From Flaviaesturariibacter aridisoli (GTDB lineage Bacteria > Bacteroidota > Bacteroidia > Chitinophagales > Chitinophagaceae), in the NCBI RefSeq assembly GCF_004343705.1, contig NZ_SKFH01000011.1, positions 1 through 64,000 on the forward strand: a stretch of 64,000 nucleotides of DNA. The letters are read 5' to 3'. The position numbers and the translations under genes were made by a program. Positions 7,511 to 20,461 of the stretch are shown here, in pieces (the stretch's first letter is position 1; the number at the start of each line of letters is the position of its first letter). A model generated the notes under the pieces. That model saw only the letters and a list, made by a program, of their open reading frames with translations, was not told the DNA's origin and did not search any database.

Positions 7511-8638
7511 ATGGCAGGCAAGGCGCGTCGATTCGTACGGCGGTTCTATCTCGGGATGAATATCGCCGTGGTAGTTCTGTTCCTGCTGTCTTGCCTGGCC
7601 TCTTACCTGCACCCGGCACGCTGGTGGTTTTTCGCCGTGCTGGGCCTCGGCTTCGCCGCCACACTGGTTACGCTCATCCTCTTCTTTTTCTTTTCGCTGA
7701 TCATCAAGCCGCGCTATTCGCTGATCTCACTCGGCGCGCTGGTGCTGGGCTGTAAAAGCATTTTCGTGTTCTTCGCCCTCAGCGGCGCGGGCAGCACCCG
7801 CGCGGGCTACGCGCCCCCAAAGGGCGCCCACACCCTGCGGGTGGTGCAGTGGAACGTAGCCCGCTTCATCGAGCAGCGGCGCAACAACAACGAGGGCAGC
7901 CAGACGCGCCTCAAGATGCTGGAACAGTTGCGGCGCACCAACGCCGACGTGCTTTGCTTCCAGGAATTCATCCAGGCCAGCGGCGAAGAATTCTACGACA
8001 ACCTGGGCTACCTGCGCAAGGAACTCGGCTACCGCTACAGTTACTTCCCGCGCGGGGCGGGCTTTAAGAACTGGTACGGGCAAGCCATCTTCTCGCGCTA
8101 CCCGCTCATCGACACCGGCTATACTTCCTTCCCGAGCCCCGGCACCCCGGAAAAGCTCATCTGGGGCAACATCGTTCTGGGCCAGCGGATCATCCGTATT
8201 TATACAAGCCACCTGCAGTCGTACAAGCTTCGCCCCGAAGACTACGAGCGCATCGAGAAGATCAAGAACAACGAAGACAGCCTGCTGCCCAATTCGCGCA
8301 GTATCTGGACGAAGTTGCACCGCGCCACCACCATCCGCGGCACGCAGGCCGACCTCGTGCGCGCCGAGCTCGACCGCTGCTCCTACCCCTTCGTCTTCAC
8401 CGCCGACCTCAACGACGTGCCCAACTCCTACGCCTACCATACGGTGCGCGGCCCGCTGCGCGACGCCTTTTTGGAAAAAGGCTTCGGCGTCGGCCGCACC
8501 TTCAACGCCCTCGCGCCCACCCTGCGCATCGACTACATCTTCACCACCCCCGACTTCGAAGTGCTGCAGTTCCAGCGCGTGGCCCGTGACCTCAGCGACC
8601 ATTACATGCTCGTGGCCGACCTGCAGTGGCGGCGATAG
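7511..8638 (+). CDS. Endonuclease/exonuclease/phosphatase family protein, membrane anchored
   Basis: A 375-residue protein with three N-terminal transmembrane helices (about 15-35, 40-65, 75-95) and an EEP domain from about residue 108. EEP landmarks are visible: VVQWNVARF (Asn), CFQEF (metal-binding Glu), HLQSY, TADLNDVPNS (D-x-N) and the final LSDHYML (Ser-Asp-His). The family hydrolyses phosphodiesters in nucleic acids, sphingolipids or phosphoinositides. The membrane anchor plus soluble EEP domain is common in Bacteroidota and its substrate is unknown. It starts at an ATG just after a TAATTTG sequence. Confidence 0.88.
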   Translation: MAGKARRFVRRFYLGMNIAVVVLFLLSCLASYLHPARWWFFAVLGLGFAATLVTLILFFFFSLIIKPRYSLISLGALVLGCKSIFVFFALSGAGSTRAGYAPPKGAHTLRVVQWNVARFIEQRRNNNEGSQTRLKMLEQLRRTNADVLCFQEFIQASGEEFYDNLGYLRKELGYRYSYFPRGAGFKNWYGQAIFSRYPLIDTGYTSFPSPGTPEKLIWGNIVLGQRIIRIYTSHLQSYKLRPEDYERIEKIKNNEDSLLPNSRSIWTKLHRATTIRGTQADLVRAELDRCSYPFVFTADLNDVPNSYAYHTVRGPLRDAFLEKGFGVGRTFNALAPTLRIDYIFTTPDFEVLQFQRVARDLSDHYMLVADLQWRR

Positions 8639-8641
8639 AAT

Positions 8642-8793
8642 CGTGAGGCGTCAGGCGTCAGCCGTGAGCCGTGAGCGAAGAAGAAGAACGCTCTTCTCCT
8701 TGCATTCAAATGCCGCGACAGATGCAATTTCGATGAAGTTGTTACCTTCCTCAGGCCATTTCATCCGCTCTCGGGCGACGGCTCACGCCTGAC
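8642..8793. repeat. Iterated GTGAGCCGTCAGCC words, inverted pair
   Basis: The left arm (8642-8673) has tandem variants of gtgagccgt/gtcaggc; the right arm (about 8771-8793) is the inverse (gacggctcacgcctgacg). The same family is found as inverted pairs at 10403-10510, 26938-27006 and 40198-40312. The right arm ends ten bases before the -7 box of the cysS leader. Confidence 0.65.
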
Positions 8794-8803
8794 GAACTTC
8801 CCC

Positions 8804-8811
8804 TATCTTTG
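8804..8811 (+). promoter_or_regulatory. -7 type promoter box before the cysS leader ORF
   Basis: TATCTTTG is an exact TAnnTTTG match, six bases before the leader ATG at 8818. No TTTG (-33) is visible at the usual distance. The predicted transcript would start only a few bases before, or at, the leader start codon. Confidence 0.6.
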
Positions 8812-8817
8812 ACCCTA

Positions 8818-8859
8818 ATGATCCCGAAGTACCCTTTCTCCGCCTGTTGTTGTTGCTGA
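8818..8859 (+). CDS. Cysteine-rich leader peptide upstream of cysS (MIPKYPFSACCCC)
   Basis: A 13-codon ORF, ATG at 8818 and TGA at 8857, whose last four codons are cysteine (TGT TGT TGT TGC, 8845-8856). It lies 52 bp upstream of the cysteinyl-tRNA synthetase start and directly after a perfect -7 box. A run of the cognate codon at the end of a tiny ORF is the hallmark of ribosome-mediated attenuation, as in the his, leu and trp leaders. I infer that ribosomes stall here when charged Cys-tRNA is low and so raise cysS expression. The ORF is too short to be a working protein and codes for nothing recognisable apart from the Cys run. Confidence 0.75.
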   Translation: MIPKYPFSACCCC

Positions 8860-8888
8860 TCCCGAGCGACCGGTACTTTCTTTTATTT
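8827..8888 (+). promoter_or_regulatory. Candidate attenuator stem of cysS leader
   Basis: The sequence aagtacc (8827-8833, within the leader ORF) is exactly complementary to ggtactt (8872-8878), which is followed by a T-rich stretch (8878-8888). A ribosome stalled on the first Cys codon would cover the left arm and block this stem; a ribosome that reaches the stop codon and leaves would allow it. A further 6-bp match, atgatc at 8818-8823 with gatcat at 8889-8894, could extend the pairing. The stem is short and the loop long (38 nt), so the terminator role is a hypothesis. Confidence 0.4.
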
Positions 8889-8911
8889 GATCATTTTCCC
8901 CTCTTATTATC

Positions 8912-10405
8912 ATGAGCACCCTCAAGGTTTATAATTCGTATACACGCGAAAAGGAAGAATTCAGGTCCATCACACCCGGCCACGTAGGCATGTACGTGTG
9001 CGGACCGACCGTCAGCGGTGAGAGCCACCTCGGCCACGCCCGGCCCTACATCACCTTCGACGTGGTGTATCGCTACCTCACCCACCTGGGCTATAAGGTG
9101 CGCTACGTGCGCAACATCACCGACGCCGGCCACTTTGAAGAGGAAGGCCGCGCCGCCGAAGACAAGATCTCCAAAAAGGCCGTGCTCGAAAAGCTGGAGC
9201 CGATGGAGTTGGTGCAGAAATATACCAACCTGTTTCACTGGGCGATGGCGCAGTTCAACACCATCCCGCCTTCGATCGAACCGACGGCCACCGGCCATAT
9301 CGTGGAGCAGATCGGGATGATCCAGGAGCTCATCCGCCAGGACTATGCCTACGAGGTGAATGGCTCCGTGTATTTCGATGTAAAAAAATACGCCGCCGGC
9401 CACGATTACGGCAAGCTGTCGGGCCGCGTGCTCGACGAGCTGCTCAACACCACGCGCGAACTCGAAGGGCAGGATGAAAAACGCAACAAGGAAGACTTCG
9501 CATTGTGGAAGTCGGCGCCGCCCGAGCATATCATGCGCTGGCAAAGCCCCTGGGGCGAAGGCTTCCCGGGCTGGCACATCGAGTGCTCCGCCATGGCCAC
9601 CAAGTACCTCGGCGCACAGTTCGACATCCACGGCGGCGGCATGGACCTCCAGTTCCCGCACCACGAAAGCGAGATCGCGCAGAGCACCATCTGCAACCAC
9701 ATACCGCCCGTGCGCTACTGGATGCACAACAACATGATCACCATCAACGGGCGCAAGATGGGCAAGAGCTACAACAACGTGATCAAGCTCACCGAGCTGT
9801 TCAGCGGTAACCATCCCGAGCTCGAAAAAGCATACGCGCCGATGACCGTGCGCTTCTTCATCCTGCAAACGCACTACCGCTCCACGCTCGATTTCTCCAA
9901 CGAGGCCCTGCAGGCAGCGGAGAAAGGACTGAAGCGGCTGATGGAACCCTACCAATGGTTTCAGCAGCTGCCGATGCCCGTCATTGGCGAAGGCACCGAT
10001 GCCGAGCTGGACAAGAAAGTACGCCACCTGCTCGTGGAGCTCGACGACTTCATGAACGACGACTTTAACACGGCGCGCGTGCTGGCCAACCTCTTCGAGC
10101 TCGTGCCGGTGCTCAACTCCTTCAAGGATAAGGTGCTGCCGCTGGAGGCGCTCAGCTACGAAACGCTGCAGTGGCTCCAAAAGAAGCTGAAGCTGTTTGT
10201 GGAAGATATCCTGGGCCTGCGGACGGAAGACGAAGCCGGCTCCGGAAAGCTCAAAAGCGTGATCGACATCCTGATCGACCTGCGCAAGGAAGCCCGCGCC
10301 AGCAAAGACTGGAAGACCTCCGACCGCATCCGCAACCAGCTCGCCGAAGCCGGCATCCAGCTGAAGGATGAAAAAGACGGCGGTATGAGCTGGACGCTAT
10401 CGTGA
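8912..10405 (+). CDS. cysS: Cysteinyl-tRNA synthetase
   Basis: A 497-residue class I aminoacyl-tRNA synthetase that charges tRNA-Cys in the cytoplasm. The HIGH motif is HLGH (39-42), the KMSKS motif is KMGKS (282-286), and the zinc ligands that select cysteine are C30, C225, H250 and E254, all in place. The C-terminal helical region (about 365-497) carries the DALR-type anticodon-binding part. Length is normal. Upstream is a tiny ORF ending in four Cys codons with its own promoter box, so the gene is probably controlled by attenuation. A 15-bp hairpin at 10443-10478 ends the transcript. Confidence 0.97.
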
Positions 10406-18286: not shown

Positions 18287-20461
18287 TCACTTGCGTAAGG
18301 TCAGCTCCTTCACAATGTTGGAGGCACCACCCACTTTGTCTACACACCACAGCACGAAGCGGATGTCGACACAAATAGTGCGGTTCAGGTTCTTGTCGAA
18401 GGCGAGCTTGTGGCTGAGGGCTTCGTAGTTGCCGTCGAAGGCGAGGCCGATGAGCTCACCGTTGCCGTTGATCACGGGCGAGCCCGAGTTGCCGCCGGTG
18501 ATGTCGTCGGTGGTGATGAAGCAGGTCACCAGCGAGCCGGTGCGCGCGTCTTTGTATTGACCGAAGTCTTTGGCGCGGGCTTTCTCGAGCACGTTCTGCG
18601 GCAGGTCGAACTCGTAGTCGCCGGCCTTGTATTTCTCCAGCATGCCTTTCATGGTGGTTACGTAGTCGTACTTCACGGCGTCGCGCGGGGCGTAGGGCGA
18701 CACCTTGCCGTAGGAAACGCGCATCGTGAAGGTGGCGTCGGGGTACATCATTTTCGCCTTGGCGGGGTTCTGCTCCCTGATGCCCTTGAGGTACAGGCGG
18801 CCCCACTCGTTGTTCTGGGTGGTGAACTGCTGGTACTTCGGCAGGTACTTGCCCTGCCAGTTGCGCAGGAAGGCGTTGGCGAGGCTGTAGGCGAGGTCGG
18901 TCTGCAGGGTCTGCGCGTCGGGGCTGCGCTTGAAGGCGGCCCACTTGGCGTCGTCGAGCAGCATCGTGCCGTCAAAAACGGCGTCGGTATACTTCTCCCA
19001 GGTAGCGGGCTTGTCGAGCGATCCGTACTCGTTGCGGATGGCCTCGAACAGGCCCTGGGGCTGCTGCTCTTTCGGCACTTCCTTGTAGTACATCTGCAGC
19101 ACGGAGGCTACGATGTTGCGGTCGGAGGGCGTGTTGTGGGCTTCCAGGAAAGCCGTGCGCGCGCGGTCGGCGGAGGCTACCAGTTTCTGGATGTCGGCCG
19201 TGGAGGAACCGGGCTTCACCATCGTGTTCTCGAGGTTCTGCAGCGAGGCGGCATAGGCCAGCAGCGGCGAGCCCATGATACCTTCGTTGATGTACACGCG
19301 GTGCAGCGCGTAGGGGCGCCAGGCGGCGTAGCTGGCTTCGAGGTTGGTGAAGATGTCCTTGTATTCGGGCTTCGCGGCGGCCCACTTCAGGAAGTCGGCT
19401 TCGGCCTTCTGCTTCTGTCCGTACACGTCGTACTTCAGCAGCTGTTTCGTTTCGCCGTCGTAGAACTTCCAATAGTTGGCGATCGAGGCGTAGTCGGAGG
19501 CGAGCTGCAGCTTGATGGCCGGGTCCTTCTTCATTTCCTCGAACATGTACTTGAGGCGCATGTCGCGCAGCTTCACCAGCGTCGGGTTGTTGATGTCGGT
19601 GGCGAGCTTGATACCGGCCGACGACTCGTAGCGGTTGGTGGAGCCGGGGTAGCCCCAGATCATGGTGAAGTCGTTTTCCTTCACGCCTTTGAGCGATACG
19701 GGCAGGTGCCATTTCGGCTTCATCGGCACGTTGGCGCTGCTGTAGCGGGCGGGTTTGCCGTCGGCCGAGGTGTATACGCGGAAGATGGAGTAGTCGGCGG
19801 TGTGGCGGGGCCACTCCCAGTTGTCGGTGTCGCCGCCGAATTTACCGAGGGCTTCCGGGGGGGCGCCCACGAGGCGCACGTCGTTGTAGCGCTGGTACAC
19901 GAAGGCGAGGAACTGGTTGTTCTTGAACAGCGGCGAGATGCGCGTTTCAACAAAGGCGGCCGTGTCGGTCATCTGGCGGTTGATGGCCGCGAGTACCGCC
20001 GCCTGGCGCGTGAGGCGCTCCTGGCCGCTGAGGCCTTTGAGGGAGTCGAGCACGCGGGCGGTCACGTCCTCGATGCGGAGCAGGAACTGCACCGACAGGT
20101 TTTGCGTGGCGCCGGGAATCTCTTCGCCCATGTTTTTGGCGTAGAAGCCGTCGCGGAGGTAGTTGTGCTCCACCGTAGAGGCGCCGGCGATCACGCTGTA
20201 GCCGCAGTGGTGGTTGGTGAAGACCAGGCCCTGCGTGGACACGATCTCACCGGTGCAGCCGCCGCCGAAGATCACGATGGCATCTTTCAGCGAGGGTTTG
20301 TTGATGTTGTAAAGCTGGTCTTTGGAAAGCTTCAGGCCTTTCTTCACCATGTCGTTGTACACTTGCTGACCAAGCAGCAGCGGCAGCCACATTCCTTCGT
20401 CTGCCGAGGCCTTGAATCCGGCCAGGGCAACGAAGAGGAGGGCGATAAGGGTTCTCTTCAT
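18287..20461 (-). CDS. S46 family dipeptidyl peptidase, DPP7 type
   Basis: A 724-residue secreted serine peptidase that removes dipeptides from the N-terminus of peptides in the periplasm. A signal peptide (1-20, ending KASA) is followed by the family start DEGMWLPLLL. The chymotrypsin-like triad is represented by H85 in TNHHCGY and S659 in GGNSGSPV. The S1-pocket residue 18 positions after the Ser is Gly677 (LAFDGNYE), which in this family distinguishes DPP7-type enzymes (hydrophobic P1) from DPP11-type enzymes with Arg (acidic P1). Length is normal. It is a single gene with its own terminator. A long antisense ORF across it is a composition shadow. Confidence 0.95.
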   Translation of the reverse strand: MKRTLIALLFVALAGFKASADEGMWLPLLLGQQVYNDMVKKGLKLSKDQLYNINKPSLKDAIVIFGGGCTGEIVSTQGLVFTNHHCGYSVIAGASTVEHNYLRDGFYAKNMGEEIPGATQNLSVQFLLRIEDVTARVLDSLKGLSGQERLTRQAAVLAAINRQMTDTAAFVETRISPLFKNNQFLAFVYQRYNDVRLVGAPPEALGKFGGDTDNWEWPRHTADYSIFRVYTSADGKPARYSSANVPMKPKWHLPVSLKGVKENDFTMIWGYPGSTNRYESSAGIKLATDINNPTLVKLRDMRLKYMFEEMKKDPAIKLQLASDYASIANYWKFYDGETKQLLKYDVYGQKQKAEADFLKWAAAKPEYKDIFTNLEASYAAWRPYALHRVYINEGIMGSPLLAYAASLQNLENTMVKPGSSTADIQKLVASADRARTAFLEAHNTPSDRNIVASVLQMYYKEVPKEQQPQGLFEAIRNEYGSLDKPATWEKYTDAVFDGTMLLDDAKWAAFKRSPDAQTLQTDLAYSLANAFLRNWQGKYLPKYQQFTTQNNEWGRLYLKGIREQNPAKAKMMYPDATFTMRVSYGKVSPYAPRDAVKYDYVTTMKGMLEKYKAGDYEFDLPQNVLEKARAKDFGQYKDARTGSLVTCFITTDDITGGNSGSPVINGNGELIGLAFDGNYEALSHKLAFDKNLNRTICVDIRFVLWCVDKVGGASNIVKELTLRK

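Follow-up and report, generated by a model that had tools for sequence, protein, structure and literature searches.

A very short open reading frame (ORF) that ends in a run of cysteine codons lies directly upstream of cysS, the cysteine--tRNA ligase gene, in Flaviaesturariibacter aridisoli, which raises the question of whether it senses cysteine for that gene. A first-pass annotation of the window, the whole 64,000-nt stretch of contig NZ_SKFH01000011.1 analysed here, had read it as a Cys-codon attenuator. From the comparisons below, a conserved cysteine leader of cysS is real, and it is likely that the leader region (8804-8911) acts as a cysteine sensor for cysS by ribosome-mediated attenuation. 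The features of the locus are as follows.

8804-8811, + strand: TAnnTTTG promoter -7 box (TATCTTTG), from reading of the sequence
8816, + strand: predicted transcript start, from placing the box at -12 to -5, as passages of PMC9723704 give it for Flavobacterium psychrophilum
8817-8823, + strand: 5' arm (AAUGAUC) of the putative long-range stem P1, covering the leader start codon, from folding
8818-8859, + strand: leader ORF of 13 codons, peptide MIPKYPFSACCCC*, the last four being Cys
8826-8833, + strand: 5' arm of the outer stem (GAAGUACC), 8 bp including a G-U pair (8826/8879)
8845-8856, + strand: Cys run TGT TGT TGT TGC, four consecutive codons; a Cys run is found in 27 of 69 genera
8852-8857, + strand: 5' arm of hairpin P2 (GUUGCU), formed by Cys codons plus the initial T of the TGA stop, from folding
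8865-8870, + strand: 3' arm of P2 (AGCGAC), from folding
8872-8879, + strand: 3' arm of the outer stem (GGUACUUU), a stem common to the leader L003
8877-8888, + strand: U-rich tract, 10 of 12 positions T, a candidate terminator tail
8889-8895, + strand: 3' arm of P1 (GAUCAUU), 23 to 17 nt before the cysS start, from folding
8912-10405, + strand: cysS, cysteine--tRNA ligase (TIGR00435), the most likely regulated gene

The first-pass coordinates of the box, the ORF and the cysS start all held up. The ORF reads ATG ATC CCG AAG TAC CCT TTC TCC GCC TGT TGT TGT TGC TGA codon by codon, and the gene beginning with the ATG at 8912 matches TIGR00435 with 444.7 bits (cut-off 340). The gene upstream of cysS ends at 8638, and between 8641 and 8912 the + strand has no TAnnTT[TC]G other than the box; elsewhere in the window only one other short ORF, of 7 codons at 19290, is boxed. 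When 8600-9000 was compared with the Rfam models by cmscan (E up to 1), no T-box was matched, and the one hit was a sub-threshold L20_leader (17 bits vs 58.7). By eye, an imperfect inverted repeat at 8649-8664 and 8779-8794 (CGTCAGGCGTCAGCCG, CGGCTCACGCCTGACG) follows the upstream gene and precedes the leader promoter, and TGAG-rich stretches are likewise seen upstream of cysS in L003, L006 and L054. Three upstreams with no leader (L014, L033, L056) carry inverted sequences containing TGCGACGC, possibly a dispersed repeat, as judged by eye.

Upstream DNA of cysS was collected from the family, Chitinophagaceae, and its order in three sets: 90 of 95 relatives with a cysS match, the best 80 of 593 loci in a scan with record titles, and 100 further family genomes picked among the matches listed. 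Upstreams identical over their last 150 bases were reduced to one copy, and L078, which has an N run, was left out; 256 then remained, 223 from the family and 33 from other families of the order. A leader was defined as a short ATG ORF with at least three Cys in six codons, and a boxed one as having TAnnTTnG 2-9 nt before the ATG; a strict rule required at least four in six plus the box. Relatives were treated as independent rows except in counts labelled non-redundant (n = 45).

In the family, 75 of the 223 distinct upstreams contain a Cys-rich short ORF, followed by Leu with 40, Asp with 15 and Ile with 14. The box sharpens this ranking to 58 for Cys, 4 for Ser, 3 for Leu, one each for four others and none for the rest, and under the strict rule Cys is found 51 times and all other amino acids not once. 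Only 63 of the 223 upstreams have any boxed short ORF at all. The antisense strand of the same upstreams gave two Cys-rich ORFs, neither boxed, and the other families of the order gave one in 33, again unboxed. As the first-pass annotation had proposed to check, the ORF and its Cys run are retained in relatives while the remainder drifts, and the leader peptides are divergent apart from the run.

This retention is patchy. Among the genomes with a known genus code, 51 of 157 have the leader (46 boxed) and 106 do not, and by genus it is present in 27 of 69 (23 boxed). It occurs in 7 of 17 cysS upstreams of the window's own genus, being absent from the other 10, and in 8 of 9 of genus g115. Named strains with the leader are Deminuibacter soli (L134), Niastella soli (L149) and Sediminibacterium roseum (L172), and Segetibacter aerophilus (L138) has an unboxed one. 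It was not picked up upstream of cysS in Cnuella takakiae (L121, CysS identity 81%), the best-ranked locus of the scan with record titles, from which the window's own genome and very close ones were possibly omitted, or in L005 of the window's genus, which seems to be the same record as L121. A quick CysS tree was built from 108 rows, of which 37 were labelled as having a leader by the permissive rule, including the doubtful L140, L151, L178 and L181. On it, leader presence needs 24 gains or losses, at least 14 of them on well-supported branches; shuffled labels needed 30.9 changes, and one of 500 shuffles was as low as 24. Together with the spread over genera, this indicates an element distributed through the family that is in part inherited and has frequently been lost or regained.

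The leader was not seen at other cysteine genes. In 317,646 bases of cysK, cysD and TGY4-stop loci (both strands), 34 short ORFs are boxed and none has four or more Cys in six codons, and the 60 cysK and cysD loci contain no Cys-rich boxed ORF. These loci have flanks of ~1.5 kb, taken without reference to operon starts, and some belong to other families of the order, so that a wider Cys regulon may exist. In the window genome, cysD is represented by two weak partial matches only (G000:C6:27865-28197), one with an internal stop, not far from cysK (C6:30350), and the nearest relatives, G010 and G016, have no cysD match (genomes 85-96% complete). Sulfate assimilation may thus be reduced in these three genomes, all of which carry the leader.

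Of the 74 distinct leaders, 57 are boxed. In all 57 the box lies 4-7 nt before the ATG (gaps of 4, 5, 6 and 7 nt in 11, 23, 15 and 8 leaders), even though 2-9 nt were allowed. In 46 of the 57 the run begins at codon 8-10, in 39 a Cys codon directly precedes the stop, and the distance from the stop to cysS is 38-140 nt (median 67); across the leaders, TGT is used 173 times and TGC 101 times. According to passages of PMC9723704, the promoter box of F. psychrophilum sits at -12 to -5, and this spacing, combined with the gap of 4-7 nt, places the predicted starts 0-3 nt before the AUG in all 57 leaders. The window message is accordingly predicted to be leaderless as well, and its predicted start falls upstream of 8860, the position beyond which, in the first-pass annotation, a transcript start would speak against the reading. 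The gap is a specific feature because leaderless mRNAs make up only 5.5% in F. psychrophilum, as stated in the same passages; in Bacteroides thetaiotaomicron, a passage of PMC7366714 gives about 3.7% of 5' UTRs as shorter than 10 nt.

A second promoter-like box is present between the leader and cysS in 23 of the 57 boxed leaders, 3 of the 24 with a spacer of up to 62 nt, which is the window's kind, and 20 of the 33 with a longer one. Among upstreams outside the leader list, 105 of 149 have such a box within the last 70 nt. In long spacers, for example those of L019 and L149, the second TAnnTTTG box may be a further promoter, from which transcription would bypass the leader. No second box is present in the window, where the leader promoter is therefore the only box of that kind seen.

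These data bear on two readings in which the Cys run has no sensing role. TGY4-stop sites are widespread, occurring in at least 140 of 147 genomes and mostly not as leaders, as might be expected if the run were a product of chance or a TGY-triplet repeat artefact. Among the matches listed in the 147 genomes, TGYTGYTGYTGYTRA shows an apparent enrichment over its backward control, but this count is not evidence by itself, because of 31 sites in 30 loci only one has a boxed ATG, a bare MCCCC; three of the sites listed (G155, G107, G110) do precede a cysS match, starting 84-97 nt from it. A chance origin fails on the 51 to 0 outcome of the strict rule and on the recurrence of box, gap, frame and position before cysS in the 23 genera with boxed leaders, which makes it barely conceivable. 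The leader ORF might instead merely deliver ribosomes to cysS by re-initiation, with no cysteine sensing; in passages of PMC4833913, the distance between leader genes of Bacteroidetes and the gene that follows them has its peak at 11-14 bp. Here the stop is much farther from cysS, at the median of 67 nt given above, and Cys alone stands out among the boxed ORFs; we regard re-initiation as very improbable.

For the RNA structure tests, five of the 74 leaders were dropped to leave 69, since by eye they were doubtful, being far off, lacking the box or ending in something other than the run; in the first tests of P1 and P2, 7 of 45 leaders had been dropped on the same grounds, leaving 38. The leader RNA of the window (8816-8911) folds with -16.7 kcal/mol (z -2.65), which 2 of 200 shuffles equalled. 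Over the 69 leaders, the mean energy of P2 is -8.62 vs -6.52 with shuffled downstream DNA, and 18 are individually at p<0.05. In the 45 non-redundant leaders, 38 fall under the shuffle median (binomial 3e-6; Wilcoxon 1.6e-7), 9 reach p<0.05, and in 35 the Cys run and the downstream segment are joined by four or more pairs. A control segment taken further along falls short of its own shuffles in stability (-2.16 vs -2.65). The contrast is weaker when the downstream DNA of other leaders is used as the reference (5 of 69 at p<0.05 and 43 below 0.5), and P2 is not significant in the window taken alone (p 0.245). By eye, the arms of P2 covary: GUUGCUG pairs with CAGCAAC in L123, UUGUUGC with GCAACAA in L221, UGUCCUG with CAGGAUA in L257 and GUUGCU with AGCGAC in the window. 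A longer hairpin around P2, with a U-rich stretch behind it, is seen in L123, L124, L201, L202, L203, L209 and L212, where a UACAACA or AACAACAAU segment ~30 nt past the stop pairs as well with the first codons of the Cys run.

In the window, P2 is enclosed by the outer stem (8826-8833 with 8872-8879), the core of which the first-pass annotation had already noticed as a 7-bp stem (8827-8833 with 8872-8878) before T-rich DNA. The two sides, AAGTACC and GGTACTT, are indeed perfect complements, and the T-rich DNA after them is the U-rich tract listed above. The same outer stem and T tail are found in L003 (G016), and L002 (G010) has a different T-tailed hairpin together with a partial stem counterpart by eye (UACCG with CGGUA). 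For P1, 18 of the 69 leaders are at p<0.05, with p 0.065 for the window, compared with 0.21 in an earlier gapped test of the 38 leaders. In 13 of the 23 leaders with p<0.1, the 3' arm of P1 ends 17-20 nt before cysS; these include many close relatives and several sequences. As a general feature P1 is not supported: 7 of the 45 non-redundant leaders are at p<0.05 with an overall Wilcoxon p of 0.11, and P1 is therefore a clade feature at most.

In the attenuator model, for which we infer translation, stalling, the direction of control and termination, a single promoter would yield a message starting at the leader AUG or 1-3 nt before it, ribosomes would load on this 5' end, and they would reach the Cys run after nine codons. 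When Cys-tRNA is plentiful, the ribosome would complete the leader and depart, and the Cys codons would pair with the segment after the stop to form P2; in the window species, the outer stem with its U-tract would then close and transcription would end before cysS. When Cys-tRNA is short, the ribosome would stall on the Cys codons and cover the 5' arms, no structure would form and cysS would be made. P2 would be covered by a ribosome stalled on the run and equally by one terminating at the stop, and discrimination between the two states must therefore rest on dwell time. Counted against the model are the Leu-rich short ORFs, which are also common when no box is required, the second box, which would bypass the leader in other species, and the lack of the leader at most cysS genes.

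How the sensor would act on cysS is less certain than the sensor itself. Terminator-like hairpins were found in 12 of the 69 leaders with a 45-nt limit, which missed the 54-nt hairpin of the window, and in 19 with a 75-nt limit; a scan of the + strand of 8600-9000 for terminators with loops of 3-8 only found none. With the longer limit, 10 of the 45 non-redundant leaders are terminator-like, compared with 13.1% of 450 shuffled controls, an excess that is slight at best, and an intrinsic terminator as the output of the whole family was rejected on this count. The first-pass proposal thus stands in that the leader belongs to cysS, and falls short in that a stem followed by T-rich termination is not family-wide; for the window and L003, it is plausible that a stalled ribosome blocks the stem. 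For the window species, intrinsic termination as the output step is a tentative reading that may or may not hold. The mean gain in accessibility of the cysS start when a ribosome stalls was 0.91 vs 0.55 kcal/mol for the null over the 69 leaders (p 0.21), and masking of the start is not supported as the general output. Gains above 2 kcal/mol occur in 17 real leaders and 5 of the null, where the null is a mean of five shuffles and the comparison is not like for like. By these two tests, the sensor is conserved and the output is not.

Two further proposals concern the output step only. In one, completion of the leader would expose a G-poor, pyrimidine-rich spacer to Rho, and a held ribosome would cover the site. 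The spacer has C 0.225 and G 0.12, compared with C 0.201 and G 0.154 in the last 67 nt of cysS upstreams with no leader, the run mostly adjoins the stop (39 of 57), and Rho would suit leaders that share no general intrinsic terminator; the same idea was put forward for mycobacterial Cys leaders (PMC1262725). However, the difference in composition is small and most of the spacer would still be bare with a stalled ribosome, so that a role for Rho seems doubtful. In the other, P1 of the finished leader would tie the leader start to the sequence ahead of cysS, or to the cysS start itself, and a stalled ribosome would open this pairing, making the control translational. The 18 leaders with significant P1, the recurrent position of its 3' arm, the covering of the cysS AUG by P1 in L147, L162 and L166 and the 17 of 69 leaders with large opening gains point in this direction, whereas neither the non-redundant P1 test nor the overall accessibility gain rises above its null, and we consider translational control unlikely. 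A more specific form is quite improbable in our view: a leaderless attenuator in a phylum with no Shine-Dalgarno initiation, arising independently of mycobacteria, in which the 5'-end start codon is also one arm of P1, a stem reaching to just ahead of the cysS start or onto it, and ribosomes that load, stall and leave within the first 45 nt would switch the whole leader with no separate antiterminator.

A cysteine sensor of this kind has precedents outside the phylum. Leaderless short ORFs with polycysteine were reported in mycobacteria (Canestrari et al. 2020, as cited in passages of PMC9031893, PMC13236596 and PMC9094748). From these passages, they resemble the present leader in being leaderless, as is predicted here, in placing a row of adjacent Cys codons before a gene linked to cysteine and in responding to cysteine supply, as the leader would here, and they differ in belonging to another phylum and preceding cysteine biosynthetic genes rather than cysS; a passage of PMC13236596 terms their mechanism translation attenuation. 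Cys leader peptides were also described in Mycobacterium, P. acnes and B. longum, with Rho suggested (PMC1262725); as here, the Cys run is near the stop and there is no conserved terminator hairpin, but these are Actinobacteria and the genes are cys operons and cbs. The closest match in target is the uORFC-8-2 motif of Rhodobacterales, which are alpha-proteobacteria, a cysS uORF with Cys codons for which attenuation was proposed and whose first stem, as in P2, contains the Cys codons (PMC8632094). That motif has two tandem Cys codons, usually at positions 14-15, and a terminator-type U run in all cases, whereas the present leaders have a run of 3-6 and are terminator-like in 19 of 69, the window included.

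Within the phylum, the main text of PMC9723704 suggests leader-peptide attenuation before amino-acid operons and describes structured 5' UTRs before aminoacyl-tRNA synthetases in F. psychrophilum. Its section on leaders names no cysteine leader, and the only match to 'cysteine' in its main text is a protease; leader peptides in Bacteroidota are also mentioned in passages of PMC7366714, again with no cysteine leader there. The titles and passages of the literature, supplements aside, gave no description of a Cys leader in Bacteroidota, in agreement with the first-pass statement that no such cysS leader was known in the phylum. What is new here is therefore the cysS Cys leader in Bacteroidota, while the Cys leader attenuators of mycobacteria and the Rhodobacterales cysS motif were already known.

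A different cysS leader was seen in f24, another family of the class. It is an ORF of 19-27 codons with conserved amino acids (M[IT][KR]F[KR]K...IF..TIICC), present in 11 of 32 loci (L323, L324, L398, L399, L400, L401, L404, L405, L406, L410, L415), ends 46-68 nt before cysS and has no TAnnTTTG box right upstream by eye. Outside Chitinophagaceae, leaders were found in 1 of 27 loci, three of which are family members, and in 2 of 50, all three of the f24 type. As part of the improbable reading given above, this second type suggests that Cys leaders evolved repeatedly in Bacteroidota.

If the attenuator reading is true, Bacteroidota would gain a compact amino-acid sensor for an aminoacyl-tRNA synthetase, based on a leaderless mode of translation that is rare in the phylum. 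If two distant phyla had converged on leaderless polycysteine ORFs, this would be a hint that loading at a bare 5' end suits cysteine sensing, and the dozens of natural leader variants would make the output mechanism directly testable in a phylum with no Shine-Dalgarno sites.
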